Below are positions 3,562 through 26,362 of a stretch of 64,000 nt of DNA, one piece after another (position 1 is the stretch's first letter; every line of letters starts with the position of its first letter). The DNA lies in assembly GCA_948470475.1 (NCBI GenBank), contig OX419339.1:24104389-24168388 (forward strand), given 5' to 3'. Under the pieces are notes generated by a model, which saw only the letters and a program-made list of their open reading frames with translations, had not been told where the DNA came from and ran no database searches. Origin of the DNA: Galaxea fascicularis. Taxonomy: Eukaryota > Cnidaria > Anthozoa > Scleractinia > Euphylliidae. A program made the position numbers and the translations under genes.

Positions 3562-3822
3562 TGTCAAAAGTTTATGCCCCTCCCACATAAGGAGAAAACC
3601 CCCAGGAAATGAATGAAAAAAACCGGAAAAGTGGAAAAATGACAAAGTTTTAATATGTACAAATAAAAAATTTACAAATAACAGCAGCTCCTTGATTGTT
3701 TTGGAAAAGTGGTGAACAACAAGGCAAACAGGAAAAACAAAACCACAGTTCAATGTTCAATGTCAAAAGTTTGTCACTCCCACAACAGCGATGTCAGCAC
3801 GGCCGCATCACGTGCAATCTCG
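3562..3822 (+). repeat. Left inverted terminal repeat of the Polinton
   Basis: Starts TGTCAAAAGTTTATGCC and matches the reverse complement of the right end almost perfectly to about 3765. A short unlike stretch follows, then a second matching block at 3782-3822. That inner block equals the 3' coding end of polB, so the left repeat carries a fragment of polymerase C-terminal coding sequence. An ATTAAA on the minus strand in the outer part could serve as a polyadenylation signal for the leftmost minus-strand gene. Confidence 0.9.
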
Positions 3823-5180
3823 TGGTAGGGACACCCAACGTAGGCTGTGCCAGTGATATCCGGGGAAGGTTCTCCGTCGGCTGCAATACATGCAGTGGAC
3901 ACTGTTGGGTAGAGGATGTATCCACCATCTGTTGAAAGAAAGGAGAAGACGGTCATCACCTTCTGAAGAACGGGTTTAGCCTGCAAGATGGGCAATCACA
4001 GATTCCGCTGCGGCCAGGGTGATGTATGCAGTGGATGGAGCCGGTGCATCGTCGGCACCAAACGAATCCCTGAAACTCCTCTCCGTCAAAGGAATCGTCA
4101 AGGTTGCAGGTACTGCAGATGGCACTGCGAAGGTAAGGAGATGCAGAATTATTTTTACCAGGGGTAGTCACACATGACTGCTGGTGGGGGTTTCTGCCGG
4201 CAAGATGAACAAAAGCAGCGTCTGAGGACGGGATGAAACCAAAAGAAGAAAGGCTCAGTGCATCGTTGACACCAAACGAATCCACCGAATTCCTCTGGAT
4301 CCATGAAATCTTCCATATCGTAGACGGGACAGACGGCACTGCAAAAAGGTGAGGAGATCAACAAAGGCGACAGCGAACGAAGGGGTTTTGAAAAGAACTG
4401 TTGGTGGGGTCCAGATAATGCTGGATGCAGTAAATGGCTCCCGAACAACGAGGACAGAAAAAGTGTTCGTCATCGTACCAGTCGGGAGTCGAGTGTGTCA
4501 GGGGACAGACGCGAGAGCTGTGGGGGTGAAAAAAAGAGAGACACGACATCAGGGCCAGTAGGTATGACGGCGACAATACGGACACCACATGAATCTGGGA
4601 AAAAAGACGGAGAAGGAAGTGTAGGTATGGCGGCGACAATACGGTCACCAAATGAATCTGTGGGCGAAGGTATTACGGCGACAATACGGACACCAAATTA
4701 ATCTGGGAAAAAGACAGAGAAGGAAGTGTATGTCAATCGATGGGATGATAGGCGTGGGCAGGGTTGAGTCGTCTGGTGTGGCAGTACGAGCACCACCAAT
4801 GAAGGACCCCCTGCCACTCCCTGAAAGAAAAAAGAAAAAACGGCTCACCCCTCAGACCCTCAGTCCACCCGGGAATCGACGGAGATACACTCGATGGAAA
4901 GAATGGTAAATGACACCCATGCAGAACATCGAGTGGAAACTGTAGTAGGCGCACGGGACGGAATTCACTGTGCGAGAGGGTCTGAAAAGAAGGAAAAAAA
5001 TGTTTTTCGAAAGTTGTCATGACTGACCTCTAATCCCTGCGAAAGGGGGAGGTGAGAGCGTTCCATCGAGGCAGGTGGAAGTGAATGGCCCCGGGAAGAT
5101 CAGGATACTCGTGTTGGGTGCATCGATCGCATCGTATCCAGTCCGGATCCCACGGAAGGAACCAATCCCGATTGGGAAAA
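3808..5180 (-). CDS. Array of nine in-phase candidate zinc-knuckle 3' exons (F-box gene)
   Basis: On the minus strand nine segments each start after a CAG or TAG acceptor (most with a good pyrimidine tract), open in the same phase (one base, then codons), and end at their own stop. They are 5180-5030, 4981-4852, 4820-4733, 4702-4645, 4594-4549, 4517-4358, 4338-4155, 4124-3956 and 3928-3808. Two classes recur. Long cassettes (4517, 4338, 4124) carry an N-terminal Cys pair or single Cys, an acidic stretch, a [FV]-x-C-x-R-C knuckle (as in GFVWCRRCTGSIHCIHH) and a final CxxC. Short cassettes carry W-C-x-Y-C-x-R-R (4820, 4702, 4594) or C-M-Y-C-S-R-R-R (3928). Donors inside the array would give introns of only about 28-34 nt, so the simplest reading is alternative joining of the upstream F-box exon to any one cassette. 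Decay of tandem exon duplications is the alternative. No transcript evidence is available. Confidence 0.55.
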
Positions 5181-5249
5181 CTATGGAGAAGGGTGTTGTG
5201 AAAGAGGAACATGAATGGAATGAGAAAAATGAAACGAAGAGACACTCAC

Positions 5250-5605
5250 CGTCGTCCTAGCTGCCGTTCCGTGAGAATGGCGAAACCATACCGCGGACAG
5301 ATGGGCAGACTGTAGATTTCCCGACAGACGGCTTGCATCTTGTCGCGATGTTCGGCTATGTCGACGTAACGCACGATGCGGTCCCTCACCAAGTCGGGTA
5401 AGCCACACCAGAACTCGCTGCCGTACAGCAGGGCGAGGCGACGTGGGGTGATGTAACGTCGGCGTCGTCGTTTGAAGCGTTTGGAACGGGTCGGCTTTTC
5501 CAGGGAACAGCAGAGGGCAGGACGTTTGGAGCGTGTGCACTCCGCTGGCGGTAGATGGAAACCGTCACCTACACAGACCAAGAACAAAATCACTAGAGAC
5601 AGCAT
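5250..5605 (-). CDS. F-box-like protein, common 5' exon
   Basis: ATG at 5605; the exon ends in phase 2 at a strong donor (GTGAGT from 5249), with an acceptor CCATAG 69 nt downstream. Residues 4-12 are hydrophobic (possible signal or anchor), then a Cys- and Arg-rich stretch (RFKRRRRRY). Residues 69-100 resemble an F-box: LPDLVRDRIVRYVDI, then VCREIYSL. F-boxes bind Skp1 and make the protein a substrate adaptor of SCF ubiquitin ligases; the downstream zinc cassettes would then be the substrate-binding part (inference). It is transcribed divergently from the gene at 5825, with a TATA box at 5671-5677. Read without splicing the frame stops at once, which supports the intron. F-box assignment is by eye. 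Confidence 0.6.
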
Positions 5606-5670
5606 GATTGTTTCACGTTAGGTTGAGACGTGCACTCACATGAAAATGAACCGACACGACGCGTGTGGGT

Positions 5671-5788
5671 TTTATATGGAAGTCACGTTGCTATGGAGAC
5701 TGAGAATGGGGGTGGGGGGTATCCCCCTAACATGCGAAACGAGGGTTGGCATGGCAATGTGACGTCAGAATGAGAAGCCTTATATAAG
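5671..5788. promoter_or_regulatory. Bidirectional promoter with CRE and conserved module
   Basis: Lies between the F-box gene (minus) and the basic protein gene (plus). It has TATA boxes on both strands (ATATAAA on minus at 5671-5677; TATATAAG on plus at 5781-5788) and a perfect CRE/ATF site TGACGTCA at 5760-5767. The interval 5684-5767 is the reverse complement of the module found at the RING/PolB promoter (20664-20754), including the string TGACGTCACATTGCCATGCC. Confidence 0.75.
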
Positions 5789-5824
5789 GAAAGCCGCAGG
5801 ATCGGTGGGAGAAATGAGTGAAAT

Positions 5825-6433
5825 ATGGACGATCTGAAGAAACAAGAGGGACGGAGACGATATGCCTTGAACAAAAAACGAATGGAGAAGATGAAGGAAG
5901 AGGAACCGAAAAAGTACGAGCGGGAAATGGAGAGAAGGAGAGAATGTAAGAGAAAAAATTATCCGAAGGACTATGCTCGTAAGAAACTTAAAATGGCGGC
6001 CATGACGGACGAAGAGAGAGCGATTCTGCAGACTCGACAAAGGGGATACCAAATCAAGTACGTGGAAAAAATGAAGAGAGAAGGTCGATACCAGGCCTGG
6101 AGAGAAAGGAAGCGTGCGGTGCAAGCGAGGTACAGAGAGAGTGATAAGTCGTGACAGAAGAGGAAAGGTTACGAAGCGAATTATAGGAGTAAATTGAGAT
6201 CGGACCCAGTTCGATCGGAACAGTTCAAAACTAATCGTAACGTACGGGCGAGACAGCGAAGGGATGAATTGAAAGAAAAGGATCCCGCGAAGTACCAGGA
6301 GAAACTGGAACGTGAACGAACGGCTTTGCGACGCAGTCGAGCCAAGAAAGACGCTGCACAAACATTGTTGTCAATGCATGACTTGTTACATGCAGCTTTT
6401 ATTTTACAAAAAATCTGTGAAAAAACCGATTAA
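5825..6433 (+). pseudogene. Basic coiled-coil protein with in-frame TGA
   Basis: Two open segments, 5825-6154 and 6194-6433, lie in the same reading frame, separated by a TGA at 6152-6154 with coding-like sequence continuing through the gap. The product is Lys/Arg/Glu-rich with predicted long helices and repeated RxRxR blocks. No enzymatic motif is seen; the composition fits a DNA- or RNA-binding structural protein. A CGA-to-TGA change, readthrough, or two separate small proteins are all possible. A TATA box at 5781 and an ATTAAA overlapping the stop (about 6429) frame the unit. It converges with the nuclease-like gene on the minus strand, the two overlapping by 4 bases. Confidence 0.5.
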
Positions 6434-7041
6434 AATGTCAGACGTAAAGCGCGTTCTAGATTGACAAAATTAATGTCTCTGGGTAATTGCAATGTCTTTC
6501 TCAACCATTGCATGAAATGATAGCATTCCACTTTGGGGCAATGGTGACGGAGAGGATCTGCATGATGACCGCAACCTCCCACGGTGGTCAAACGGTTCAG
6601 GCTTTCGAATTTGGGACATCCCCAGACTTCCAAGTCGACGCAGGGTATCCCCATCTTGTCCAACAGGTCTTTTTCTACGTGTCCACCCTTGTACCCCACC
6701 AACGTCCGGTCCGAGGTCTTGTGGGTGTCGTAAAGGGTTCGGAGGTCCTCGCGTAATTGCCAGGGAGGTCGGGCTTGTTCCTCGGAGGTGGGACGATAGG
6801 GTAGACCGTGAATGCGGTTGGTGACGTATCGGCACGTCCGCCGGTCCTTGAGGGGTAAGTCGCGATAGTTCACAGTGTGGAAGTAATGGTAGGACCCGAC
6901 GTCGGTACCGGATCCCGGCCAGGCGCACCATCCCAATTCCCGGACCAGAAACTGTTTAGGGTTTCCGCGCGAAGCGCTGACGTGAAATCCCTCCAAGTCG
7001 ATCACCAGACACACGCGTTCCAAATCAGAGGCTCCGATCAT
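6430..7041 (-). CDS. Putative DnaQ/Maelstrom-like nuclease-fold protein
   Basis: 203 residues, ATG at 7041 overlapping the stop of the upstream SLOG-like gene (ATGA). A D-L-E motif at residues 15-17 sits at the end of a hydrophobic strand, as in exo motif I of DEDD exonucleases. Downstream are GYKGGHVEKDLLDKMGIPC (residues 116-134), a VDLE, a CPKFE and a His/Cys-rich segment CGHHADPLRHHCPKVEC (157-173) that could be catalytic or zinc-binding, as in Maelstrom-type RNase H folds. An AATAAA on the minus strand at 6398-6403 follows the stop. Likely role: DNA or RNA 3'-end trimming or nucleic-acid binding (inference). Not a standard Polinton core gene. Family call is tentative; structure prediction would test it. 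Confidence 0.5.
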   Translation of the reverse strand: MIGASDLERVCLVIDLEGFHVSASRGNPKQFLVRELGWCAWPGSGTDVGSYHYFHTVNYRDLPLKDRRTCRYVTNRIHGLPYRPTSEEQARPPWQLREDLRTLYDTHKTSDRTLVGYKGGHVEKDLLDKMGIPCVDLEVWGCPKFESLNRLTTVGGCGHHADPLRHHCPKVECYHFMQWLRKTLQLPRDINFVNLERALRLTF

Positions 7042-7712
7042 GCTCTGGCCGTGAGTAAGAAGGCAGGTAAAATGTCAAAAAAGACAGGATCTTTTCTCGT
7101 CAAACGTCTGGTCCCAGCTATCAAACAATGTTGATTTCGCAGAGAAGGCAGAGCTCCGAAATGAGGTCTGAACTGTAACCTGGTGTAATCAAAAGTGAGC
7201 CAAGTGTTTGTGGACAAGTCAAACAAATAGAGAGGTTTGTGCTTGAGAATGGTCACGTGCTGGATCCAACCCGGGCCTCCCATTTGTTCATTGCTGGAGT
7301 GTGAGGGGCGAATCAAATCGCCGATGAGGTACACGGCATCGGACTGGACCACCATGTCCACGTCACGTCTCAACAGGTAACGTAGAGAGGGACTGAGTTG
7401 ATCGTAATCGGGACACAAGGCTCGACAGGTCGTGGTGATAGTTTCGTCGTGATGCTCATTCATGCACACCACACGGCTATGCTTGAGTTTGTCCCCTTCC
7501 AACATCACTCCGTCCGTCACGGGATGCTTGCCTGGTATGACTAAACGAGGATATCCTAGGATGGGTGCAAACCCTACTTGTAACTTGGTTTCATCACCTC
7601 TTTCGTCATCGTGAGGTAAGAAGAAAGCGCAATGAACCCCCAATTGCTTGCACAGGAAAATCACTCCGGCACACACACCCATATCGCCTCCAGTTATCAC
7701 ACACGTAGTCAT
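7038..7712 (-). CDS. SLOG/Rossmann-like protein, paralogue 1
   Basis: 224 residues. The N-terminus is a strand-glycine loop (VITGGDMGVCAGV, residues 5-17) typical of Rossmann or SLOG nucleotide-binding folds. Near the C-terminal half GGPGWIQHVTILKHKPLYLF precedes a D-L, an arrangement shared with the neighbouring paralogue and like the GGT...KP..DL ending of cpYpsA-type SLOG proteins. SLOG domains bind nucleotide-derived ligands. In this virus it might sense or sequester a host signal, or act in nucleotide metabolism (inference). The stop overlaps the start of the next gene (ATGA). TATA on the minus strand at 7748-7755. Rossmann fold fairly likely; the exact family is uncertain. Confidence 0.55.
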   Translation of the reverse strand: MTTCVITGGDMGVCAGVIFLCKQLGVHCAFFLPHDDERGDETKLQVGFAPILGYPRLVIPGKHPVTDGVMLEGDKLKHSRVVCMNEHHDETITTTCRALCPDYDQLSPSLRYLLRRDVDMVVQSDAVYLIGDLIRPSHSSNEQMGGPGWIQHVTILKHKPLYLFDLSTNTWLTFDYTRLQFRPHFGALPSLRNQHCLIAGTRRLTRKDPVFFDILPAFLLTARA

Positions 7713-7763
7713 CTTGAGAAATGAAAAATGTTCGAGAAGAGGAGTTCTTTATATACAGAGGGA

Positions 7764-7830
7764 AAGTCGTTTGATTGGTCGGAGGTAGAGCGTCGTGATC
7801 GGTCGGTGGAGGAGTACTGTGATTGGTGGG
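7764..7830. promoter_or_regulatory. CCAAT/ATTGG-box cluster upstream of SLOG paralogue 1
   Basis: Two GATTGGT boxes, and one GATCGGT variant, are embedded in a repeated context ending GATTGGTGGGTTT(C)GATCCG. The same context occurs at 8617-8700 upstream of paralogue 2. ATTGG is the inverted CCAAT box bound by NF-Y type factors. Confidence 0.6.
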
Positions 7831-7846
7831 TTTCGATCCGGTGTTT

Positions 7847-8563
7847 TTAGGAAGCTTGCAGTTGTCGTCTGTGTTGATGCAGGTAAAAGAGATCGTGGAT
7901 CACATCGTAGGCGTTGTGGGAGGGGTCGACGTGCCGATCACCCACGATGGCGCATTTACCCTCCAATTTAGGTGCAGCAGGAGCGGGTACGAAACGTCCC
8001 TGGTCGTAATCGTACCACAGCCACCGTTCATTCGTCAAGTCGTACAGGTGGACGGGTTTGTGCAACCTTTGCGCCAATCGTACCGTCCATCCCGTTCCGC
8101 CGCGCACGAAGGACGTCTCCCCATCGTCGTCGTCCGGTGTCAAATAGCCAAAAGCCAACACGCGGTCGCAGGCGGCGGCGATGGTATGGTCTCTCTGTAG
8201 GTACCTGCGGGAAGAGATGTAGTATTGGTCGAAATTGGTATTCAAATCTCGACAGGCCGCGGCTGCCTCGACATCTACTTCGGGTGCCACTTCAAAACGA
8301 TCCCTCAACGATTGGTGGTCGGTCAAAGGAAGAAGGACGGAAAACAGAGTGTCGTTGACATGCTCGCGTCGTCGGAAGAGGTGGATGCCCGTCGACACAC
8401 CCATGCCGATGTGCCAGGGCGCAAACGGATCGTCTCGCAAATCGTACTGCATGCTGTGAAAAGAAGGTAGGATGCAACGGAAAGGAATGTGGTAGCGATC
8501 GGCCCAGTACATGGCGGTCACATCCGTACCCTTGCATCCTCCCGTGATGATTTGAACGCTCAT
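7847..8563 (-). CDS. SLOG/Rossmann-like protein, paralogue 2
   Basis: 238 residues, ATG at 8563. It opens with IITGGCKGTDVTAMYWADRY (residues 5-24), the glycine-rich loop plus helix expected for a SLOG/YpsA-type nucleotide site. A second signature GGTGWTVRLAQRLHKPVHLY then D-L lies about 60 residues from the end, matching the region where cpYpsA-related SLOG proteins have a GGT loop and a KP..V.DL strand. The layout matches the adjacent paralogue, so the pair arose by tandem duplication that may have included the promoter. Minus-strand TATA-like TACATAAG at 8599-8606. Function unknown; binding of an NAD- or nucleotide-derived ligand is inferred from the fold only. Confidence 0.6.
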   Translation of the reverse strand: MSVQIITGGCKGTDVTAMYWADRYHIPFRCILPSFHSMQYDLRDDPFAPWHIGMGVSTGIHLFRRREHVNDTLFSVLLPLTDHQSLRDRFEVAPEVDVEAAAACRDLNTNFDQYYISSRRYLQRDHTIAAACDRVLAFGYLTPDDDDGETSFVRGGTGWTVRLAQRLHKPVHLYDLTNERWLWYDYDQGRFVPAPAAPKLEGKCAIVGDRHVDPSHNAYDVIHDLFYLHQHRRQLQAS

Positions 8564-8598
8564 GATGATGAAATGAGATCTGCGGTGGGAGAGAGGTT

Positions 8599-8711
8599 CT
8601 TATGTAGGAGGCGAGAGGTCTGTGATTGGTCCGACGTAGAGCGTCGTGATTGGTCCGACGACGTAGAGCGTCGTGATTGGTGGGTTTTCGATCCGTTCGG
8701 TGGGTATAAAA
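8599..8711. promoter_or_regulatory. Divergent promoter with three CCAAT boxes
   Basis: Three GTGATTGGT units in tandem, spaced by a CCGACGTAGAGCGTC-like linker, lie between SLOG paralogue 2 (minus; TACATAAG 8599-8606) and the GRF gene (plus; TATAAAA 8705-8711). Confidence 0.65.
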
Positions 8712-8745
8712 TGCGCTGCACCAGAGAAACCTAGATCACACTCGC

Positions 8746-9773
8746 ATGGCACGAAGAAGAAGAAGAAGAAGAAGACGAAAGATGCAAGGCGTGGACATTG
8801 TCAGACAAGCGGCCGAGGAGTGTGCGTTGGAGTTGGAAGGACAAGCTCAGTTGGAAGCCATCGATGATGCCACCATGAAGGAGTTGTTGGAACCGCTACC
8901 GGACTACCAGACCGAGGTGCTGGAGGAAGGTGACGCGCCCTTAGGCATGGTGGCATTCCTCCCGGTCCACCCCGACCGGTCCCCGTCGTCGTCCAGTACA
9001 CGTGCCCCATTCACGCTTTCCCTTTGGAGTTCCGCATCTCGGAAGCCAAAGGCTGGGAATACTACGTGTGTCGAGAACGCGGTTGTCCAGTCTGGTTAGA
9101 CGCCCGTCAATGTCAGGAGTTGTGTGAGGCTTGGGAGGAACAAGTCTGTCCGGAGATCAAGAGGGGTCCCTTCACTTGTTATTGCCGACGCCCCTACAAG
9201 TGGGTACTCTGTCGCTCGTCCCAACGTGGGAATGAAGGACGTCTATTCCTGACCTGTCGCGACAAGACCTGTGACTTTTTCCAGTGGGCCGATACCCCTC
9301 CAGGCGAATATCGCATGAGGTTACCTAACCAAACGCGGAGACAACAGATCCTGGCCCGTCAGTATGCCCGACCACCCCGTCGCCTCTACGTTCCGGAACG
9401 CACGGTGAGATCCCATCCGAAACCTCCTAGGACGCGAGACAGTGCACTGACCATGTGGAACCAAGTGCGGAATGAGAAGACTCGTCACTCCAGCAAGGAC
9501 GAGACCAGTGTCGAACCCCCACCCAAAAAACGTCCCAGGAGCACGCTGACCTGTGACTGCTACCCAGGGATGCATGCCAGCCAAGACCCCACCCCCAGAG
9601 AACGGGTGGAAGAAGACAAAGAACGCGTACGACGCGAGAAATATCTGGAAGAGGAGATGTACCTGGCAGGGTTGGGCGAGGAGGAAAAACGTGTTCAGCG
9701 AGAGATGCATCGGACCGGTGTGACCCGCGAGGACTTGCATCGGTATGCCTTGACGCACATGGACGCTAAATGA
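8746..9773 (+). pseudogene. GRF zinc-finger protein, one frame change
   Basis: The first frame (ATG 8746, poly-Arg start RRRRRRRRRK then an acidic helix) stops at 9099. A second frame, open from well before 9000 to the stop at 9773, carries the zinc-binding parts: CPIH with a later CRERGC pair, then a GRF-type finger (CYCRRPYKWVLC, then GRLFLTC and CDFFQWAD). Its tail is Arg/Glu-rich. GRF fingers bind single-stranded nucleic acid in TOP3A, NEIL3 and APE2. The two frames abut around 8955-8965 in a C-rich run, so a 1-base indel or programmed shift joins them; two overlapping genes cannot be excluded. TATA at 8705 and AATAAA at 9806-9811 define one transcription unit. Confidence 0.65.
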
Positions 9774-9805
9774 AAAAAATTGTACATAACCTGTAGATAG
9801 CACTT

Positions 9806-9811
9806 AATAAA
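9806..9811 (+). terminator. Polyadenylation signal AATAAA
   Basis: AATAAA 33 bases after the GRF gene stop and 30 bases before the next ATG. Confidence 0.6.
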
Positions 9812-9840
9812 ATCATTTGTAACCAAACCTGTGTGGTGTC

Positions 9841-10227
9841 ATGAGTTGTTGGGGTTGGCGTAGTCGCTGGCTCGTGACCAGTTGGATCTGTCAACGGTGG
9901 GTGGGTGACCATCCCATACCCATAGTCGAAGAAGAGATCGAGGGATGGGGCTTGGCCGAGGTGTTGCACCTCTGGCAAGAAGTGGTGGAGGCGCCCGAGT
10001 TTCACGTGGGTCATTACGCGGTGTTTGTGGAATGGTTGAGACGCTCGTTTGGGACCAAAGACGGGGAATTTTACTGGCGATACATCCATAAAATACACGA
10101 GGAACGCATTCCCTCCGTCAAACGATTGATACTGTGGTGGGGATGGGAAAGTCTCAAACGTACACTGATCCGAATGTACCCGGAGCGTTGGGCGGATTCG
10201 TCCGGTACGCCAAGACCCACCGAATAA
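9841..10227 (+). CDS. Trp-rich protein of unknown function
   Basis: 128 residues from ATG 9841. Rich in Trp, Glu and Arg (MSCWGWRSRW at the start; RLILWWGWESLKRTL near the end), predicted helical, with no recognised domain. The last 85 bases overlap the start of the integrase gene in another frame. It may be a small separate protein or part of the integrase transcript leader. It has no homologue I recognise. Confidence 0.45.
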   Translation: MSCWGWRSRWLVTSWICQRWVGDHPIPIVEEEIEGWGLAEVLHLWQEVVEAPEFHVGHYAVFVEWLRRSFGTKDGEFYWRYIHKIHEERIPSVKRLILWWGWESLKRTLIRMYPERWADSSGTPRPTE

Positions 10228-11198
10228 CTCTGCCGGAAGCACGACGCCGTTTAGAAAGAGAATTGGCGTTTACTCTGCACCGACCCATCCGACGTCGGTT
10301 TACCACGTTACCCGTCTTGGTCTTCGAGAAAGACGAACAATGGGTGGCGGATCTGGTGGAAATGCAAACCACCGCCAAATGGAATAAAGGCACCCGGTAC
10401 CTCTTGACGGTCGTCGACGTCTTGTCCAAATTTGCCTGGGTCCGTCCTTTGAAGAAAAAGACCGGAGAGGAAGTGGTGAAAGCGTTTCAGAACATTCTCA
10501 AGACCAGCGGACGTGAACCTCGGCGTTTACAAACGGACAAGGGTAAAGAGTTTTACAACACCAAGGTACAGACCTGGTTGAAAGAGAAAGGCATCGAACA
10601 TTTTTCGACGCACGGCGATGCCAAAGCCAGTGTGGTGGAACGATTCAATCGCACGTTGAAGGGACGGATGTACCGATACTTTACGGCCACCAACACCTTG
10701 ACGTACCTGGACGTACTACCGGCCTTGGTGAAAGCGTACAATGCGGACGTGCACCATAGCATCGGCATGGCACCCCAAGACGTCACGGAGATCAACGAAG
10801 CCCAAGTCTGGCAAACCTTGTACGGCAAACGAGTGGGTAAACCGTCCAAACCCAAGTTTAAGGTGGGCAATCAGGTTCGGTTGAGCAAGAGGGTACGAAC
10901 CTTCAAGAAAGGTTATCTACCTCAATGGATGGAAGAAGTGTTTGTGGTGTCGCGGGTCGTGCCCGGTCCGGTGACCACTTACCGCGTGGAAGAAATGGAC
11001 GGTACCCCGTTACGAGGGACGTTTTACGAACAAGATTTGCAAAAAGTGATCGTGGACGAGAAGACGTTGTGGCGCGTGGACAAGGTATTAAAACGCAGAC
11101 CCGGTCGGATGCTCGTCAGTTGGAAAGGGTGGCCTGCCAAGTACAACAGTTGGATCGACGATGCCTCAAGGAAGAGGAGAAGGAGGAGAAGAGTTTGA
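10143..11198 (+). CDS. Retroviral-type integrase with chromodomain
   Basis: 351 residues from ATG 10143 (an upstream GTG is less likely in a eukaryote). The N-terminal YTDPNVPGALGGF segment is typical of Polinton integrases. The rve catalytic core has the triad D70 (WVADLV), D132 (LQTDKGKEF) and E166 (SVVERFNRTLK), spacing D-x61-D-x33-E. Residues about 300-340 form a chromodomain-like module (LWRVDKVLKRR, then SWKGW and NSWI) followed by a basic tail. It would insert the linear viral genome into host DNA; the chromodomain may direct it to modified histones. All catalytic residues are present. Overlaps the penton start by 38 bases. Confidence 0.95.
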   Translation: MGKSQTYTDPNVPGALGGFVRYAKTHRITLPEARRRLERELAFTLHRPIRRRFTTLPVLVFEKDEQWVADLVEMQTTAKWNKGTRYLLTVVDVLSKFAWVRPLKKKTGEEVVKAFQNILKTSGREPRRLQTDKGKEFYNTKVQTWLKEKGIEHFSTHGDAKASVVERFNRTLKGRMYRYFTATNTLTYLDVLPALVKAYNADVHHSIGMAPQDVTEINEAQVWQTLYGKRVGKPSKPKFKVGNQVRLSKRVRTFKKGYLPQWMEEVFVVSRVVPGPVTTYRVEEMDGTPLRGTFYEQDLQKVIVDEKTLWRVDKVLKRRPGRMLVSWKGWPAKYNSWIDDASRKRRRRRRV

Positions 11199-12300
11199 AA
11201 GTCTTTACTTGACGCTTCCCAGCAATGGAGGGGGTGCTCAGTTTGACGACACCAATCGAAACAACGATTACAAGATCAAGTTACCGTACCGGTTGCGTCT
11301 GCCCGGCAACGGATGGCAAGTGGCCTTGAGTTCCATCACCTTACCGCGACCCAAGGTGCCAGTGCAAATCGATAGAGACGCCTTGTTGAAAATTATTCCC
11401 GAAGAAACGCGGTTGGTCAGTTGCGTCATAAATCTCTACGATGACAAAGGTACCGTCTATCGACGACGAACGAGCTGGGTGACGATGGGGGAGGTCATGT
11501 GGTACGACTCGGTCAACGATGGCGCAACCTTCATGAAACGATTGAAACTCTTATTGGAACGCAACATGTTCGAGGTGTTCTATGAACACAGCCGGGAAAA
11601 GGAGTACACAATGCGACGAACCAAATGGCAGGGTGGACGAGACACGGGGGTACGAGGTTACCCCTTGTTAAAATGGAATGCCGATGAAGAATACATGGAG
11701 GTCGACTGGTCTGGCACAGACGACGACATACAACTCGAATTTAGTGTTGGACGCAAGTTTGCAGAACTCACCGGCTGCGTCTCGTGGTTTGACGGGGATG
11801 TGGTCAACGAATGGCATTACGGCCCTCATCTGATCCTCTATCCCAAATACAATGATGCCGTAGCCAAAGCACCGTACATCTCGTCGGAAAGGACCGCCGA
11901 TTTGAGGGGGCCCATCTATTACACCGCCAGTGGGGGTCCTTTCTTCGGTTTTCGCAGTCATGCCAGGTACCGTTTCATCTTGAACCGCGATTGGTTCGTG
12001 GCGAAAACACGACAGAGAGAAAACGGTGTACCCAAAGATTCCATGGTCTACGTCTACAGCAACGTGGGACGCGGAACCATCCTAGGGGGACAGATCACCG
12101 ACCTGTTGCGTCAAGTCCCCGTAGGACACGAGGACAAGGAGGGATTCGTCTATTACGAACCCAAGAACATGCAACACATCGACGTCCGTAACACGGAATT
12201 GGACGTGGTGGAAGTCGCCATCGGCAAACCCGAAGGGGGACTGGCCGAATTGGGCGAAGGGATCACCACCGTCACCTTGCATTTTAGACGCGTCCCTTGA
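11161..12300 (+). CDS. Penton (single jelly-roll minor capsid) protein
   Basis: 379 residues, ATG 11161 inside the integrase end. The N-terminal LYLTLPSNGGG, then KIKLPYRLRLPGNGWQVAL, is the conserved opening of adintovirus/Polinton pentons, followed by a beta-rich body. It lies directly upstream of core-protein genes and MCP, the usual order. It would occupy capsid vertices. Assignment rests on the N-terminal motif, size and position; structure prediction should show a single jelly roll. Confidence 0.85.
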   Translation: MPQGRGEGGEEFESLYLTLPSNGGGAQFDDTNRNNDYKIKLPYRLRLPGNGWQVALSSITLPRPKVPVQIDRDALLKIIPEETRLVSCVINLYDDKGTVYRRRTSWVTMGEVMWYDSVNDGATFMKRLKLLLERNMFEVFYEHSREKEYTMRRTKWQGGRDTGVRGYPLLKWNADEEYMEVDWSGTDDDIQLEFSVGRKFAELTGCVSWFDGDVVNEWHYGPHLILYPKYNDAVAKAPYISSERTADLRGPIYYTASGGPFFGFRSHARYRFILNRDWFVAKTRQRENGVPKDSMVYVYSNVGRGTILGGQITDLLRQVPVGHEDKEGFVYYEPKNMQHIDVRNTELDVVEVAIGKPEGGLAELGEGITTVTLHFRRVP

Positions 12301-12326
12301 GCGCGATCGTCATTCGTCGCGGAGTG

Positions 12327-12521
12327 ATGAGCGGACACGGTAGTGCCGTCCGATACGAACCGGTCTTTCCGGAGACCATGACTGGAGGGAAGTTGCGTAT
12401 CTTCGTACCGCATCCATCCAAAGAAGACCAAGGGGGAGGCGGATCGAGGAGAAGAAGAAAAAAGACGAAAAGGAAGAAGAAACGTGCCAAACCGTATGCC
12501 CGAGGGGATATATTCTCGTGA
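12327..12521 (+). CDS. Small basic virion protein
   Basis: 64 residues from ATG 12327. A short beta-like N-terminal half is followed by Gly4-Ser and a Lys/Arg run (RRRRKKTKRKKKRAK). Composition resembles DNA-condensing core peptides of adenovirus and Polintons. It sits between penton and MCP. No catalytic motif. Confidence 0.5.
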   Translation: MSGHGSAVRYEPVFPETMTGGKLRIFVPHPSKEDQGGGGSRRRRKKTKRKKKRAKPYARGDIFS

Positions 12522-12545
12522 GAGGGGGCGAGAACCCTTCATTCG

Positions 12546-12788
12546 ATGGTGGAGAGCATGCCCGGTAGACGACGAAAAACGAAGAAACGGCAGCAGCGTA
12601 GAAAACGCACGCAACGCGGTGGGACAGTGTTGGGGTCTCTACCGCCAGAGATCGAGTGGGCTCGACGGATGGCCTCCTACTACGCCAAACGGTCGCAACG
12701 CGGTGGTGGGTTCATGGAACCTCCCATGCGACCGGTGCGACCCTATCATCACCGACGACGGGTCTACACGCACAGTCTCATGACATAA
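12546..12788 (+). CDS. Basic core protein with two QRGG sites
   Basis: 80 residues from ATG 12546 (or 76 from 12558). Arg/Lys-rich N-terminus, then RTQRGGT and RSQRGGG. Gly-Gly sites of this kind match the cleavage preference of adenain-like proteases, so it may be matured in the virion like adenovirus pVII or pX (inference). Confidence 0.6.
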   Translation: MVESMPGRRRKTKKRQQRRKRTQRGGTVLGSLPPEIEWARRMASYYAKRSQRGGGFMEPPMRPVRPYHHRRRVYTHSLMT

Positions 12789-12855
12789 AGGAGGGAGCAT
12801 CGAGCCGACGTTCAATCAGTTGCTCCTACTCTTTGGAACGTACACAGCGATCACC

Positions 12856-14322
12856 ATGCCCAAGCGCACTAGAAACGTGGGTCGGTTGGCCGAAGGTCTG
12901 AATCTGGCCGATCCGAGATGGGAAAGACCCGTCAAACGCGCCGGATTGGGTCCGAATGTCGATCCCAAGTTTGCACTCTTCACCGTTCCTCCGGTGGACG
13001 AGAGTGTGGCCTCGCGACGTGTGGTGGAGATACCGCCCTCGGTCAGCGGACAGATCAACCCCATCGAATTCGAGATCAAACCCAGCACGGAGTACGTGGA
13101 TCTGAGTTCGAGTTTCTTCATGCTGAAGTTGCGATTGAAATTGGCGAATGGCGACAACATCGTGGACGCCTCCGACATCTATCCCGGTCAGAATCTGTGT
13201 CACACCATGCTCAAGCAAGTGTCGGTCTACGTCAATGGGGTGTTGACCACGGTGCAATCGGACACGTACGCTCTGAGCGCCATGATCCAGACCATATTGA
13301 ACCACGACGAGGACGATGCCGTGTCCATCCTTCGACCGCAAGGCTTCATGCCCGACAACCTGAACGTGCCCAATCCCTTCACCGCCAACAGAATGAACAT
13401 CGCAGCCAATGCGGGGGCAGGGCATGCCGATTTCGTTGCTCTGCCGGTCAGACAACAAGCGGCCGTACGCGCCACGGTGGAGGAAAAAAAATTGTACGTG
13501 AACGGAGTGCGTCGCACGCTGGTCTTCAAACCCTTGGTGGAAGTCTTTCATCTGAACAAACCCTTGCCACCCAACACTCGCGTGCTGATTCGCATCCACT
13601 TTAACGAAGCCGCGTATTTCATGAACGGTACCGTAGCAGGACGTTTGGTGGCCGACGATGTGGACCTGAAAATGTACGTGTCGTCGTTACGTCTGAAAGC
13701 TCCGTTGTACAACACCCTGACCCATCTGAGGGATACCAACCATTACATGCAGTACCCGGTGGTGCGGTACGAGACCCGCACCTTCACGCTGCCCAACGGC
13801 GAGACCAACTTCGACAAAGCCGACATCTTCGAACAACGGATTCCCAACCGCGTGTTCGTGTATTTCCTGGACAGTCGAGCCTTCAACGGCACGATTAATT
13901 ACTCCGCGTTCGCTTTCCAGACGTTTGGCGTGGAATGGATCAAACAGTTGATCAACGGGGAAGAGTACCCGTACACCAGTACCTTGGAAGTGCAACACGA
14001 CAATACCAGCAAAGACTACGATGGGTATCATCGCTTCTTGTACGATACGGGGGCATTGAAGAAAGGCAGAAAACCGCTACTGAGACCCGAGGATTGGGGG
14101 CAAGGCAAGAACTGTACCATCTTTTGCTTCAACAACGTGGAGAGCGGAGATGCCGACAGTCGCTTCATGAATCCACAGAACCAAGGCAATCATCGCATCC
14201 AAGCCAGGTTCCACGGTGCCATAGGACAAGCCACCACCGTCTGCGTGACGGGTGAATTCGAAAACGTCATGAAGATCACGCGGGAAGGGGGTGTCCTTTA
14301 CGAAACCTATAATGGGATGTGA
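12856..14322 (+). CDS. Major capsid protein (double jelly-roll hexon)
   Basis: 488 residues; ATG 12856 (MPKRTRNVG) is chosen over the TTG-initiated extension. Size, beta-rich sequence, and landmarks such as the tract near SSSFFMLKLRLKLANG, VSVYVNGVL and the C-terminal FENVMKITREG fit the Polinton/adintovirus hexon-like MCP. It is placed between core proteins and protease, as in other members. It forms the icosahedral shell. The frame is intact, which suggests recent or ongoing function. Confidence 0.9.
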   Translation: MPKRTRNVGRLAEGLNLADPRWERPVKRAGLGPNVDPKFALFTVPPVDESVASRRVVEIPPSVSGQINPIEFEIKPSTEYVDLSSSFFMLKLRLKLANGDNIVDASDIYPGQNLCHTMLKQVSVYVNGVLTTVQSDTYALSAMIQTILNHDEDDAVSILRPQGFMPDNLNVPNPFTANRMNIAANAGAGHADFVALPVRQQAAVRATVEEKKLYVNGVRRTLVFKPLVEVFHLNKPLPPNTRVLIRIHFNEAAYFMNGTVAGRLVADDVDLKMYVSSLRLKAPLYNTLTHLRDTNHYMQYPVVRYETRTFTLPNGETNFDKADIFEQRIPNRVFVYFLDSRAFNGTINYSAFAFQTFGVEWIKQLINGEEYPYTSTLEVQHDNTSKDYDGYHRFLYDTGALKKGRKPLLRPEDWGQGKNCTIFCFNNVESGDADSRFMNPQNQGNHRIQARFHGAIGQATTVCVTGEFENVMKITREGGVLYETYNGM

Positions 14323-14348
14323 ACGTCCGCTCCGACGACAGAAGAGAC

Positions 14349-14963
14349 ATGGAGTTCGTGGCGACCACGACGAAACAATTGGAGACGTTGGCGCAACACG
14401 ACGCCCGGTTGCGACCCTACTTTGCGGGGGTCTTTGCCAGCGATGCCTTACCCTCGTCGCCGTCGAAAGCGCATCCTCGAGGGTACATCGTCAATGTGGA
14501 TCGTCGGGAGGAACAGGGTTCGCATTGGTTGGGGGTGTGGACGGAAGACGAGACCTGCGAAATCATGGATAGTTTCGGGATGGACGTGGCCCGGTACGAC
14601 ATACCCTGGTTCGAAAAGTGGACGCGAGACCATTTCTGGGCGGTACGAGAAAGTCGCAAGACCTTGCAGGCCATCGACAGTCAGAGCTGCGGCATGTACG
14701 CATTGGCTTTTCTCATCGTTCGTGCCACGGGCATCTCCATGGACGGGTTCTTGTCCATGTTCACCACTCACGATTACGTGAAGAACGATCACAGGATTGC
14801 TCAATGGTTCAAGAAGACGGTGAAAGACACGTTGGTGTGGGAAAGGATGAAACGCGAACAACCCGCTCTTTTCCAAGGCAATACCGTTCCGGTACGGTTA
14901 TTGGACATGCGCGCCATGTGGCGTTCGTTGGACGAGGAAGAGTGCGGTGATACGGTCTTTTGA
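14349..14963 (+). CDS. Adenain-like (C5) maturation protease
   Basis: 204 residues from ATG 14349. Catalytic pattern H59 (GSHWLGVW), D74 (MDSFG), Q112 and C114 (IDSQSCGMYAL) is that of adenovirus protease and Ulp1-like cysteine proteases. It would cleave core and minor capsid precursors at Gly-Gly sites; many neighbours carry such sites. The start overlaps no other gene if this ATG is used, 27 bases after the MCP stop. Confidence 0.92.
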   Translation: MEFVATTTKQLETLAQHDARLRPYFAGVFASDALPSSPSKAHPRGYIVNVDRREEQGSHWLGVWTEDETCEIMDSFGMDVARYDIPWFEKWTRDHFWAVRESRKTLQAIDSQSCGMYALAFLIVRATGISMDGFLSMFTTHDYVKNDHRIAQWFKKTVKDTLVWERMKREQPALFQGNTVPVRLLDMRAMWRSLDEEECGDTVF

Positions 14964-15002
14964 GAGATTCCCACAAGGCCGAGCCGGTCGACGAGACATG
15001 GA

Positions 15003-15119
15003 TATATAAGGCACGTCTCCCTCTTGTCAGGTGCAAGGGGCGGAGACATGCGGGAGGTGGTGTTCGTTGTAGACGGGTTGGCAGTCCACCCGTAGAGAAT
15101 ATGGAGTTCTGTCAATAAA
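15003..15119 (+). promoter_or_regulatory. Internal TATA box and early AATAAA
   Basis: TATATAAG at 15003-15010 and AATAAA at 15114-15119 lie in the 217-base gap between protease and the next gene. The TATA may drive the downstream block, and the AATAAA may end the penton-MCP-protease block. The interval also holds a 15-codon frame at 15047. Confidence 0.5.
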
Positions 15120-15180
15120 AAGTCTTGTTAAGTGCACGCCACTCGTCTCCGCCTCGTTCATTTTGACTTTGACACTCGTC

Positions 15181-15531
15181 ATGAACACAAGTCTTCCTCC
15201 GGGTTGGGATAAACTATTGACGGAGTATGCGGCACCGGGACACGAAACCGACCCCGATAAGAGGGATCGACCGGTCGCGCAAAGAACGAGACCTCCCGTG
15301 ATACGCAAGAGGAAACCCTTGAGGAAAAAAGCCTTGACGAAACGTCAACCGAGACCCATCGGCGTGAAGGAGTATGTGACGTTGAACAGTTTCATGCGAA
15401 AATTGCCCGTGGAACATCGACGTTATCGATTGCCCATCACCCGCGGCATGACCATGACGTCTTACCTGAATCGATTAGGAAAGAAATTAGGATGGACCCG
15501 CGTGAGATTGGCTCATTTGCTTTGGAGTTGA
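15181..15531 (+). CDS. Basic protein of unknown function
   Basis: 116 residues from ATG 15181. Middle part is Arg/Lys/Pro-rich; the last 17 residues (KKLGWTRVRLAHLLWS) are read from a copy of the DNA that encodes the ATPase N-terminus, in a different frame. The C-terminus was therefore probably replaced by a local duplication. Role unknown; probably virion-associated by position. Confidence 0.5.
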   Translation: MNTSLPPGWDKLLTEYAAPGHETDPDKRDRPVAQRTRPPVIRKRKPLRKKALTKRQPRPIGVKEYVTLNSFMRKLPVEHRRYRLPITRGMTMTSYLNRLGKKLGWTRVRLAHLLWS

Positions 15532-15846
15532 AGGCATGAAGACCACACCGCGACGTACGGTCCGGACGAAGAGAAAGAAGAAAAAGAGGAAGAAGACGAA
15601 CCAACGCGGTGGGGCCCCGTATCGTCGGAAACCGACCTTGGTCGATAAGATCGCCGAAGGCGCGAGTATGGTCCTGTCCGGACCCGCTCCTAGCTTCGGG
15701 TCCTTGGGGTTGTTGTTGGGAAAACAAGCCTTCAAAGGCATAAAGGACAACGTCCAACATTACCGCAACCGCAGGTGAAAGAAAAAAGAAATTAGGATGG
15801 ACCCGCGTGAGATTGGCTCATTTGGCTTCGGAGTCGAAGGCATGAA
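15481..15846 (+). repeat. About 60-bp direct duplication flanking a core-protein gene
   Basis: Copies at about 15481-15541 and 15786-15846 differ by only a few bases. The first supplies the end of the upstream gene and the start region of the core protein; the second supplies the start of the ATPase. Confidence 0.85.
15536..15778 (+). CDS. pX/pVII-like basic core protein
   Basis: 80 residues from ATG 15536. Basic N-terminus (RTKRKKKKRKKTNQRGGAP) with a QRGG site, followed by an amphipathic Gly/Leu-rich segment (SFGSLGLLLGKQAFKGI). The layout (basic run, GG site, hydrophobic helix) matches Polinton/adenovirus core peptides. Likely condenses DNA and is cleaved by the viral protease (inference). 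Confidence 0.65.
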   Translation: MKTTPRRTVRTKRKKKKRKKTNQRGGAPYRRKPTLVDKIAEGASMVLSGPAPSFGSLGLLLGKQAFKGIKDNVQHYRNRR

Positions 15847-16501
15847 GTTCTTCAAGACACCGTGCAGCGTGTTGATTGCCGGACCGTCCAATTGCGGTAA
15901 AACGGTGTTCGTTTCCAAACTCCTCCACAATGCGACGCATTATTTTCGACGATTGAAACCCAACGTGCATTATTGTTACGGGGCCATGCAAGACAAATTC
16001 CAGGAGATGGCCAAGACGTCCAAACCCAAGATCCATTTTCACGAAGGTGTGCCGACGGTAGAGGATTTGGACGAGTGGTTCCGTCCGACGGGAGGTGGAT
16101 TGTTGGTGATGGACGATTTGATGGACGAGTGCGGGAACGACAAGACGGTCATGGACATTTTCACCAAACATTCTCATCACCGCAACGTCTCGGTGATCTA
16201 CATCACCCAAGATCTTTTTCCCACCGGTAAATTCGCCAAGACCATCTCGAGGAACGTGCATTACATCGTGGCCTTCAAGAACCCGCGCGATACGGTGGGT
16301 GTACGCACGGTGGTATTACAAGCGTTTCCTAAAAACTGGAAGGATGTCATGACGGTCTTTCAGAAAGCCACGAGTCGACCCTACGGTTATTTGGTGATGG
16401 ATTTTCACGCGCAGACGCCCGACGATCATCGTCTGTGGACGAACATCTTAAAAGAGAAAGGCACCTACCCTAGACTTTACAAACCCAAACAACCGTCGTA
16501 G
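15797..16501 (+). CDS. FtsK/HerA-type genome-packaging ATPase
   Basis: 234 residues from ATG 15797. Walker A GPSNCGKT (29-36), Walker B LLVMDD (102-107), and a polar motif near IYITQDLF fit the A32-like packaging ATPases of Polintons and adintoviruses. It would drive DNA into the capsid. Intact. It begins in the second copy of the 60-bp duplication. Confidence 0.93.
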   Translation: MDPREIGSFGFGVEGMKFFKTPCSVLIAGPSNCGKTVFVSKLLHNATHYFRRLKPNVHYCYGAMQDKFQEMAKTSKPKIHFHEGVPTVEDLDEWFRPTGGGLLVMDDLMDECGNDKTVMDIFTKHSHHRNVSVIYITQDLFPTGKFAKTISRNVHYIVAFKNPRDTVGVRTVVLQAFPKNWKDVMTVFQKATSRPYGYLVMDFHAQTPDDHRLWTNILKEKGTYPRLYKPKQPS

Positions 16502-16508
16502 AAGAACC

Positions 16509-17519
16509 ATGGCTAACGACCGTTCCCCGGCTTGGGTCAACGATTTGATGGAAGAGCAAGGACGTCGGGGGGACGACCTAACTACGCAAAGGTTGTTGGC
16601 AAGTCAACGACGTCTGTCGACTCCGCGCGTGACGCCTTTCGACTCGCAATTGGGAATAACCCACGGTGCAGAGGATCTCGCGTTCGATCCGGACGATGTG
16701 CTTTCGGACCTCTTTCCCCATGCCATCATTTCGTCGTCGTCGCCCCTGACACGAGACTCGACGGACAACATTGGGGTGACCTCCACCTTACAGACCACGT
16801 CTCTTTCTCCCGTGCCTATTCGCACGGCTCCCACACCCCCCATCGGCGTCTCTCCGAGGGGAGCGACCGTCCGCATACCGGTTGGAGCCGCTGGATCGAC
16901 CACCGTCACCAGTGCGTCGGCACCTCCGTCCGGTGCGTCGGTACCACCACCGTCCGGTGCCGTGGGAGCCGCGTCCTCGTTACCGTCCGATGGAGTGGCA
17001 CGAGCCAGAGCGGCCAGCAACGCTCGTCGATTTGGGGACCCACCGGCTCGTTTGAGAGCTTTGGTCGAGCGACAGAATAGACGTCGTCGAACGGGGGCCA
17101 TGACCAGGACGACCACCACCACCACGGCCACGAGCCGACGAGGACGTCCCAGGGATTCGGACGATTCGTTGGGAACGCCACGACGTTCTCCTCCTAGTTG
17201 GGGTGCACCTAGCCCGACGACGACCGGTGCACCGGGATCCGTCGCTGCCAGTCGTCATACTCCTCCGACACCCGGGTCGGCCGCTAGAGTTCCGACAAGC
17301 AGTCTGAGAAGAAATTACGATAGAGTCGTGGCAGGACAACGTCGTAGGATCGGACGTCGCGGGGCTCATTCGGTGACCGAGACGCATACCACGACCATCG
17401 TGTATAAGGACGGACGACCACCCGAAGTGCATCGCAATTCGTCGAGACACACGACACCGAACACATCGAATCAATCCGGCAGCGGACAATTGTTACCTTT
17501 GGAGTGGTTCGTCGAATAG
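16509..17519 (+). CDS. Pro/Ser/Thr-rich protein of unknown function
   Basis: 336 residues, ATG 16509, 8 bases after the ATPase. Most of it is low-complexity (runs of T, S, P, R; TTTTTTATSRRGRP), so probably disordered, with short conserved-looking ends (SPAWVNDLMEEQ at the start; LLPLEWFVE at the end). It could be a tail-like minor capsid or scaffold protein by position. I do not recognise a family. Confidence 0.55.
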   Translation: MANDRSPAWVNDLMEEQGRRGDDLTTQRLLASQRRLSTPRVTPFDSQLGITHGAEDLAFDPDDVLSDLFPHAIISSSSPLTRDSTDNIGVTSTLQTTSLSPVPIRTAPTPPIGVSPRGATVRIPVGAAGSTTVTSASAPPSGASVPPPSGAVGAASSLPSDGVARARAASNARRFGDPPARLRALVERQNRRRRTGAMTRTTTTTTATSRRGRPRDSDDSLGTPRRSPPSWGAPSPTTTGAPGSVAASRHTPPTPGSAARVPTSSLRRNYDRVVAGQRRRIGRRGAHSVTETHTTTIVYKDGRPPEVHRNSSRHTTPNTSNQSGSGQLLPLEWFVE

Positions 17520-17523
17520 AGAC

Positions 17524-17793
17524 ATGCCCAAGACCGGTCGACGTAAACGAAGAAGAAGAAGAAGACGAGGTCAAAGAGGTGGTGCCATCCCTGTGGCTGC
17601 AGTAGGTATTCCCGTTTTGAAAGCCTTGGGGAAAGCAGCAGCTGCGAGTGTGGCAGGGGCTATGGCCAAGAAAGCCCTGACCGCTCTGAAGCGCAAAGCC
17701 GTGAGTGCCCTCAAACGCAAAGCCAAGGGCAAAGCGCGGTCGGGATTGAAGAAAGCGACGCAAGCCTTGGACGGTTGGATCTCCAGACGATGA
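17524..17793 (+). CDS. Basic core protein with QRGG site and Ala/Lys repeats
   Basis: 89 residues. RRKRRRRRRRGQRGGAIP is followed by an Ala-rich hydrophobic helix and repeated ALKRKA units (TALKRKAVSALKRKAKGK), resembling histone-like DNA-condensing proteins. The GG site is probably cut by the adenain-like protease. Confidence 0.65.
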   Translation: MPKTGRRKRRRRRRRGQRGGAIPVAAVGIPVLKALGKAAAASVAGAMAKKALTALKRKAVSALKRKAKGKARSGLKKATQALDGWISRR

Positions 17794-17837
17794 AAACGGG
17801 CACGCACTGTCTACGAGGGGTCACTCCACAACCGAAC

Positions 17838-18161
17838 ATGCCCAAGCAAAGAGTGACGCGACGACGACGGACGACTCGTCGACGAGGTGGTAGTACAAAG
17901 AAGAAGAAGACAACGACGACGAAACGTCGCAAGCTGCGTGGTGGTATGATGCCTTTTGTGGTGGATGTCAAGAAAGGGTTCGAATTGCTGAAGGATCCTA
18001 AAATGTGGCATATACGTACCAAGGCCGAGAAACAGCACGATAAACGGTTGGTGGCCGGTTACAAGAATGAATATCGTCAGAGCGGAAGCAACGATTCCTA
18101 CGATTCGTGGGTCCAAAAGAAAGGCTACGCCAAGAAAGCTGATGCGTGTACCATCATGTAA
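17838..18161 (+). CDS. Basic virion protein with two RGG sites
   Basis: 107 residues from ATG 17838 (in-frame ATG at 17790 also possible). RRRGGST and KLRGGMMPF sites in the basic N-terminal part; the C-terminal half is a folded-looking charged region ending CTIM, where the Cys lies at the -4 position of a CaaX-like box (CTIM), so prenylation is conceivable but unproven. Confidence 0.55.
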   Translation: MPKQRVTRRRRTTRRRGGSTKKKKTTTTKRRKLRGGMMPFVVDVKKGFELLKDPKMWHIRTKAEKQHDKRLVAGYKNEYRQSGSNDSYDSWVQKKGYAKKADACTIM

Positions 18162-18210
18162 GTAAAAGGCCGGGAGAAGGATCCGCTCCCTTCATTTTCG
18201 TGCAGACATC

Positions 18211-18585
18211 ATGGTGGTGACAAGATCTCAGTTCCAACGTGCATTATACAAGATCATCGAGGACGAATTGGAGCATACGCCTCGATATACCGCTCGACAT
18301 GATTTTTTGGATGATCTCTTGTATCTACTCGACCGAGGGAAATCGTACGACAAGTACGCCCGTGCTCGAGAATCGGAGTTCCCGTACTTGCTGCGTAGGA
18401 TGGAAGAGGATGCGGATCGTCAAGTCAGGGGTGTTCACGACCTCATGCAACTCTTCAAGGATCTAGGGATGACGATAAAAACGGACCACGCCACCCTCCC
18501 ACCCATCAGACAGCATGAAACGCATTCGACGACAGTGGGGATTCCTAAGGTCTCTCTTGGACGAGGCCAAACATCAGACCCGTAA
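18211..18585 (+). CDS. Helical protein of unknown function
   Basis: 124 residues from ATG 18211, preceded by a pyrimidine-rich TTTTCGTGCAG that could be a 3' splice site. Acidic/basic helices (FLDDLLYLLDRGKSYDKYAR), no recognised domain. Its end overlaps the next gene by 71 bases. Confidence 0.5.
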   Translation: MVVTRSQFQRALYKIIEDELEHTPRYTARHDFLDDLLYLLDRGKSYDKYARARESEFPYLLRRMEEDADRQVRGVHDLMQLFKDLGMTIKTDHATLPPIRQHETHSTTVGIPKVSLGRGQTSDP

Positions 18586-20172: not shown

Positions 20173-20176
20173 GTTC

Positions 20177-20182
20177 AATAAA
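20177..20182 (+). terminator. Polyadenylation signal AATAAA
   Basis: Five bases after the PLA2 stop; it would end the rightward late block. Confidence 0.7.
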
Positions 20183-20290
20183 AAACACACGCCATGTACA
20201 CATATATGTGTGGTCATTGACTTTCTCGACATTTAAAGGCGGGGGTTGAAAAACCCCCTGGGGTCTTGTCCGTGGGGGCGGTCCGGGTCG

Positions 20291-20593: not shown

Positions 20594-20645
20594 CTTCGAA
20601 GACTCGAGAAGAAGTGAAAAATGGCGGTCCTCGCACTCGTCCCTT

Positions 20646-20869: not shown

Positions 20870-20943
20870 ACCCGGCGCGTACGAGAGAGCACTCATTTTT
20901 TCGTGTGTGCTCTTGCAAGCAGTAGTAGTCGACCATCATCATC

Positions 20944-26358: not shown

Positions 26359-26362
26359 TTTT

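Follow-up and report, generated by a model that had tools for sequence, protein, structure and literature searches.

Adenoviruses and papillomaviruses have compact genes in which one donor is common to several acceptors, and we know of no array of paralogous, phase-matched tails in them. One of the alternative C-termini of the paramyxovirus P/V/W proteins binds zinc, and BTB, the domain encoded by the shared 5' exon of mod(mdg4), is an E3-adaptor domain. According to the published account, mod(mdg4) has at least 31 isoforms that combine the BTB 5' exon with many 3' exons, most of them with a zinc-finger (FLYWCH) motif (PMC4667647). The mod(mdg4)/lola arrangement, where a shared 5' exon is joinable to any of many 3' exons, is the nearest analogue of the gene described here. 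The paramyxovirus system also places alternative C-termini behind one viral N-terminus (PMC8204654). Within the same virus group as our element, the adintovirus Oncoid and Ziftr genes are accessory genes, some of which resemble zinc-finger regulators (PMC11071296). Among the papers listed on adintoviruses, Polintons and viral F-boxes, no title or abstract opening describes such an array in a virus or Polinton.

Here, we analyzed a window of 64 kb (the whole stretch of DNA, C5:24104389-24168388) and searched the coral host genome of 416.6 Mb in 170 contigs. The first-pass annotation had assigned the gene to a Polinton/adintovirus-like element, and this assignment is supported by perfect 147-nt inverted repeats together with an rve integrase (PF00665, E=1.8e-14) and a PolB (PF03175, E=1.9e-34) in Pfam searches. 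The element is 21.7 kb long and carries the many-tailed gene at its left end on the minus strand (Table 1). Its family B DNA polymerase, which we take to be of the protein-primed type, has 1492 relatives at E<=0.001 among 8000 scored; among the 120 relatives listed, the sole one with a named organism is from the coral Porites lobata (52%). Candidates for an adenain-like protease (PF00770, 19.0 bits) and an A32-like packaging ATPase (PF04665, 20.0 bits) scored below their cut-offs of 21.3 and 22.8, and the ORF at 12784-14322, where the major capsid gene is expected and which is a candidate for a double jelly-roll major capsid protein, had no Pfam match at E<=0.01. Searches of IMG/VR with exon 1, PolB and the PolB alignment returned no relatives, and a search of assembled-genome contigs returned a single PolB contig of 3.6 kb, whose record carries the label Poribacteria and which is probably a contaminant.

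The window also contains other mobile or repeated sequences. A second, degenerate Polinton PolB lies at 59347-63212 on the minus strand, with 68.8% nucleotide identity to 21259-25180 and a terminal-repeat-like stretch at 59347-59411; neither exon 1 nor any of the five tails tried has a match in the 9.9 kb beyond it. Just beyond the element, a young LTR retrotransposon (25341-32140; LTRs 99.4% identical) has a SCAN-like domain and an integrase that precedes the reverse transcriptase. Densely packed imperfect inverted repeats occupy 32483-33637, and at 6430-8599 on the minus strand are two proteins with a TGG-type start (7038-7748, without a Pfam match, and 7847-8563), which we assume to be SLOG-like, and an adjoining 203-aa ORF.

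Searching the host genome with exon 1 gave 50 matches, of which 34 are near full length (L036-L040, with a degenerate exon 1, are excluded from this set). The TATAAAA box is kept in 33 of these 34 copies and so is the ATG, L051 being the exception for both, while an inner stop in exon 1 occurs in one copy, L008. The promoter-region block and its inverted copy (Table 1) hint at regulation common to the many-tailed gene and PolB. The single GTGAGT donor that had been proposed behind the open exon is present in the sequence, and its GT is kept in all 34 copies (GTGAGT in 32, GTGAGC in one and GTCAGT in one). If left unspliced, the exon 1 frame meets a stop one codon past the exon and gives 119 residues. 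A candidate upstream intron that would remove the ATG (donor-like CATGTGAGT at ~5640, acceptor-like GTAG near 5567) was rejected as not conserved: among 12 copies compared, L067 and L032-L035 lack the donor-like site, L050, L034 and L035 lack the GTAG, and the ATG and hydrophobic start persist in 11 (not in L051, which is broken upstream). Neither exon 1 nor the window tails contain an LxCxE motif.

To describe the region behind the donor, all AGs downstream of it were listed with their phase-2 reading, a strong acceptor being defined as YAG with at least 15 pyrimidines in 20. Nine were chosen because the phase-2 reading of each is a distinct tail; they open tails of 14-60 residues, all in the same phase and each with its own stop, within ~1.4 kb (tails A-D and F-J in Table 1). 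This listing bears out the nine in-phase segments behind CAG/TAG-type acceptors of the first-pass annotation. Its C-x2-C knuckles are found in 8 of the 9 strong tails and are missing from tail B of the window, unlike the B tails across the 34 copies, of which 32 of 33 carry the motif; its two motif classes were a simplification, with A, B and G fitting poorly to either. The additional tail E sits within a tandem D/E/F repeat. The acceptor filter of the chance test below passes 12 acceptors in the array region, and a few other strong-looking acceptors (e.g. 5036, 4967, 4221) open readings that overlap, are shorter or have a single residue. Position 4221, inside tail H, is an in-frame acceptor with 16/20 pyrimidines that would shorten this tail, and its motif is present in 30 of the 34 copies.

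Table 1. Positions in the window of the element and of the parts of the many-tailed gene, with splice sites as predicted.
Feature	Positions	Strand	Description
Polinton/adintovirus-like element carrying the many-tailed gene	3562..25300	.	terminal inverted repeats, rve integrase, PolB
Left terminal inverted repeat (core)	3562..3708	+	147 nt, 100% complementary to right core
Right terminal inverted repeat (core)	25154..25300	-	147 nt, 100% complementary to left core
Promoter-region block	5679..5770	.	93.5% identical, inverted copy at 20661-20753 upstream of PolB
TATA-like box	5670..5676	-	~65 nt upstream of ATG
Exon 1	5250..5605	-	opened by ATG at 5605; 118 codons and two bases of a split codon
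5' splice site GTGAGT	5244..5249	-	predicted; donor starts at 5249
Tail A	5030..5180	-	49 aa, CDRC
Tail B	4852..4981	-	42 aa, without C-x2-C in window copy
Tail C	4733..4820	-	28 aa, CSYC
Tail D	4645..4702	-	18 aa, CPYC
Tail E	4645..4657	-	weak acceptor (4657; 13/20 pyrimidines), stop after three codons
Tail F	4549..4594	-	14 aa, CPYC
Tail G	4358..4517	-	52 aa, CPRC and CRLC
Tail H	4155..4338	-	60 aa, CQRC and CSSC
Tail I	3956..4124	-	55 aa, CSTC, CRRC and CPSC
Tail J	3808..3928	-	39 aa, CMYC
ATTAAA poly(A)-like signal	3649..3654	-	in left terminal repeat, downstream of all tails

By counting chains of non-overlapping acceptor plus C-x2-C tails, we found a chain of 8 in the phase of exon 1 and of 2 in each other phase. 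No chain of this type exceeded 2 in the 5000 dinucleotide shuffles or 1 in the 612 control windows (1442 nt each, mutually overlapping) taken from the rest of the 64 kb, which excludes a chance origin of the tail chain. The agreement in phase is weaker as independent evidence, since several tails are homologous (detectably so for the pairs A-A2, H-I, D-F and G-I) and duplication of an acceptor with its tail preserves the phase by itself.

The array is real as an observation, and comparison across copies makes it stronger than first claimed. Tails were sought in phase 2 only, by likeness to typed reference tails, so that other tails could escape, and were found in phase behind YAG in 25 (A1), 32 (A2), 33 (B), 33 (C), 32 (D), 32 (G), 30 (H), 32 (I) and 30 (J) of the 34 copies; these counts drop L064 (A1 interrupted), two GAG-type H matches, one early J match in L062, the D-labelled matches beyond 780 nt, and repeat matches. 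The acceptors are thus conserved in related copies, as the first-pass annotation would lead one to expect, and the gain and loss of cassettes that it proposed to look for is seen as well: 24 of the 34 copies have two A-type tails and the window copy has one, and the window copy has D/E/F versus a single D in most copies. A tail H search of the genome gave 46 matches, including the homologous tail I, of which 41 lie within 2.5 kb of an exon-1 match. The other five lie farther away; of the four that were read, L069, L070 and L071 hold further tails of the set (L070 being 6.2 kb from a broken exon 1) and L068 has diverged I- and J-like tails, the fifth being C10:16333589.

The spacing of the tails bears on how they could be joined to exon 1. 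Intron lengths to every tail type cover all three residues modulo 3, which means that the frame could not survive read-through of the genomic sequence, and read-through or frameshifting between tails was rejected because the distances are not multiples of three. In the window, 19-50 nt separate the stop of each tail from the strong tail that follows. This agrees with the first-pass annotation, which held the gaps of some pairs to be too short for introns, but not with its range of 28-34 nt. Across the copies, the stop-to-next-tail distance has a median of 29 nt and is at most 60 nt in 97.5% of 238 cases (two of 240 distances, outside -5 to 200, are omitted). Usual minimum intron lengths exceed these gaps, and the tails would therefore compete as 3' splice sites rather than form a chain of exons, a splicing reading of the array that is well supported but unproven. 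Having its own stop, every tail could also be taken for a separate small gene or a regulatory RNA unjoined to exon 1. We consider this highly improbable, as no window tail has an in-frame ATG as its first codon and 6 of the 10 have no M at all, every tail stands behind an acceptor in exon 1's phase, and AATAAA or ATTAAA is absent between the donor and the end of J, and so between the tails, in all five copies examined of the 34. A public protein search with exon 1 returned one protein, which is the unspliced 119-aa reading (P0001), and no spliced protein.

Selection was estimated from rows of modal length without inner stops (e.g. 15 of 32 for G and 11 of 30 for J), a choice of intact rows that biases pN downward. 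Among close copies, pN/pS was 0.39 for exon 1, 0.50 for A2, 0.44 for B, 0.58 for G, 0.50 for H, 0.50 for I and 0.44 for J, with A1 (1.13), C (0.88) and D (0.95) lying close to 1 or above it. These last values count against the reading that all tails are used; they would fit a gene in which one or a few acceptors are used and the remaining tails are still-open remnants of tandem duplication, as would the recent tandem duplication D/E/F, in which one copy is stopped, and the homology of the four tail pairs above. We nonetheless hold such a gene to be unlikely, given that 25-33 of the 34 copies keep each tail type open and in phase and that all 8 tail types compared between the window and the diverged L033 are open (log10 P of about -3.5 under neutral substitution). 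Acceptor zones also differ less than tails in all four comparisons (5.7, 6.5, 4.1 and 11.5% versus 12.5, 12.4, 15.2 and 13.9%; for L032 and L035 the comparison covers 7 tail types, others not being found there), and a different array is maintained in the second family below. Relative to subfamily 1b, constraint is clear for I (pN/pS 0.45-0.47) and J (0.34-0.35); between the window copy and subfamily 1b, A2 and G were close to neutral at 0.92 and 0.93, and C and D have no synonymous change (pN 0.014 and 0.176), hence no ratio; these values, too, count against the reading above. Identity is also uneven along the gene: in the same three of seven pairs compared, it is 97-98% in C, 86-88% in exon 1 and 75-78% in H. 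These jumps suggest that single cassettes have been exchanged between element copies, and unequal constraint could contribute to them.

A second gene family was found through seven distant exon-1 matches, 42-56% identical over the matched part, for each of which 9.4-9.5 kb were read (with N contents of 789 in L043, 4070 in L045 and 4511 in L046). Four of them (L041-L044) have a predicted phase-2 donor, AG|GTACG, followed in the donor phase by chains of 6, 5, 5 and 4 C-x2-C tails, respectively, the other two phases giving 1/1, 0/2, 0/1 and 3/1. Both a donor and an array, the latter decayed, are present in L047, and the pattern used detected no donor in L045 or L046. Cassette pN/pS was 0.47 and 0.39 against L044, and 0.97 over all tails between the two closest copies; the latter value and the wrong-phase chain of 3 in L044 count against the best reading. 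Several tails of family 2 are detectably alike among themselves, and there is no clear kinship between the tails of the two families, as the best cross-family score is only z 3.6 (C-K2). In L041, L042 and L043 the unspliced reading itself continues into a cysteine-rich tail. L041 adjoins a capsid ORF resembling window 19801-20172 (a likeness judged by eye), both of which we take to be PLA2-like. A public protein search with family 2 returned two proteins, neither with a spliced tail.

Whether exon 1 encodes an F-box, as the first-pass annotation had it, was examined by several profile comparisons. A putative F-box-like stretch lies near residues 66-100, and the Pfam check did not uphold it: the full exon has no match at E<=10, a 50-aa piece reached 12.0 bits against a cut-off of 20.5 for PF00646 (E=0.21), and a second sub-threshold PF00646 match had E=0.19. 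Two pieces of subfamily 1b matched no Pfam family, and family 2 had sub-threshold matches (E=0.15-0.5) to PRANC, a poxvirus domain that includes an F-box-like part. No exon-1 copy is among the 69 F-box matches listed in the host genome at E<=0.001, and a PDB profile search gave no F-box chain among 7 matches. Profile-profile alignment by hhalign with 14 host F-boxes covered 34 columns with the LP...VC landmarks in register (P=1.2e-4 as a single comparison, probability 55%), falling to P=0.0022 and probability 13% with full-length rows. Of 2000 shuffles each, the number reaching the own score was 0 for the window, 3 for P0001, 84 for subfamily 1b, 30 for family 2 and 89 for P0122; the window and P0001 pieces thus perform well against their own shuffles, and the diverged pieces do not. 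Both AlphaFold models were poor (mean pLDDT 39.9 and 43.3). Taking these results together, we regard an F-box in exon 1 as about an even chance. Three F-box matches elsewhere in the genome (C2:30355163, C3:8415008 and C5:24319611) have identical scores in frames of 238-239 aa, which suggests a repeated element with a clear F-box.

With the layout unchanged, exon 1 could instead be another scaffold, for example that of a basic protein of the nucleus, or of a protein that is secreted or sits in the membrane and varies in its cysteine-rich tails, an option that we place slightly below an even chance. It would account for the absence of a Pfam match above cut-off and of an F-box chain in the PDB search, for the basic run KRRRRR in exon 1, and for the hydrophobic N-terminus of family 1 (MLSLVILFLVCVG), which is kept together with its ATG as described above. 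Family 2, however, starts with MSRTMTTRSQ and has no hydrophobic N-terminus; F-box-class models are among the top sub-threshold matches, though the unrelated models DUF561 (E=0.16), PNP_phzG_C (0.2) and Geminin (0.14) score alike; and the profile-profile alignment covers the F-box with its LP and VC landmarks.

Based on this anatomy, we think it fairly probable that the gene works with one promoter, one terminal poly(A) site and competing 3' splice sites, giving one tail per mRNA, with a shared part that docks a host machine and tails that choose partners. The gene would be expressed early, to judge from the promoter block common to PolB, and in its pre-mRNA nine or ten 3' splice sites would compete for a single 5' splice site. 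The shared N-terminal exon would be joined to one acceptor in each mRNA, with the tail translated to its stop and later tails becoming 3' untranslated sequence up to the poly(A) site that all mRNAs share in the terminal repeat; trans-splicing is unnecessary, as the array lies on the same strand within 1.4 kb. RNA left unspliced would yield the 119-residue protein with no tail. For the shared part, docking to a host machine is the most likely role, and this machine may be SKP1/Cullin-1 should the F-box-like stretch prove genuine. The zinc-knuckle-like tails, which may bind zinc, would each select a different partner, so that tails might swap substrates as the first-pass annotation proposed. New tails may arise by duplication of an acceptor plus tail unit, which would keep the phase automatically, and single-tail alleles may be swapped between element copies. 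A broader proposal, in our view evenly balanced between true and false, is that Polinton/adintovirus-like elements carry a modular adaptor gene whose variable region is genuine. A constant docking exon would be combined with cassettes that duplicate, diversify and move between copies, a single promoter yielding about 10 adaptors against different host or rival-virus proteins, and at least two old families of one host would follow this plan with different sets.

Among accessory genes of the same virus group, Oncoid and Ziftr differ in that no terminal-exon arrays are described for them in the passages covered (12 of 21) and the term F-box is absent from the main text (PMC11071296). The many natural copies of the coral gene, with cassettes gained, lost and apparently exchanged, offer material on acceptor competition and on the evolution of adaptor target range. 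At the DNA level, it has the mod(mdg4)/lola-type layout of one donor followed by many in-phase terminal segments with their own stops and a cysteine motif. mod(mdg4) and lola, in contrast, are host genes with long loci and trans-splicing, whereas the coral gene occupies ~1.4 kb in a virus-like element, with nested acceptors, one poly(A) site, C-x2-C knuckles and a possible F-box in place of BTB. Paramyxovirus P/V/W differs in producing two or three ends by transcriptional slippage or editing, not by splicing to about 10. If transcripts confirm the splicing, one small gene could encode many proteins, and the choice of 3' splice site would multiply the C-terminal domains of a virus-like gene within ~1.4 kb, on a scale that is otherwise, to our knowledge, found at only a few insect loci.
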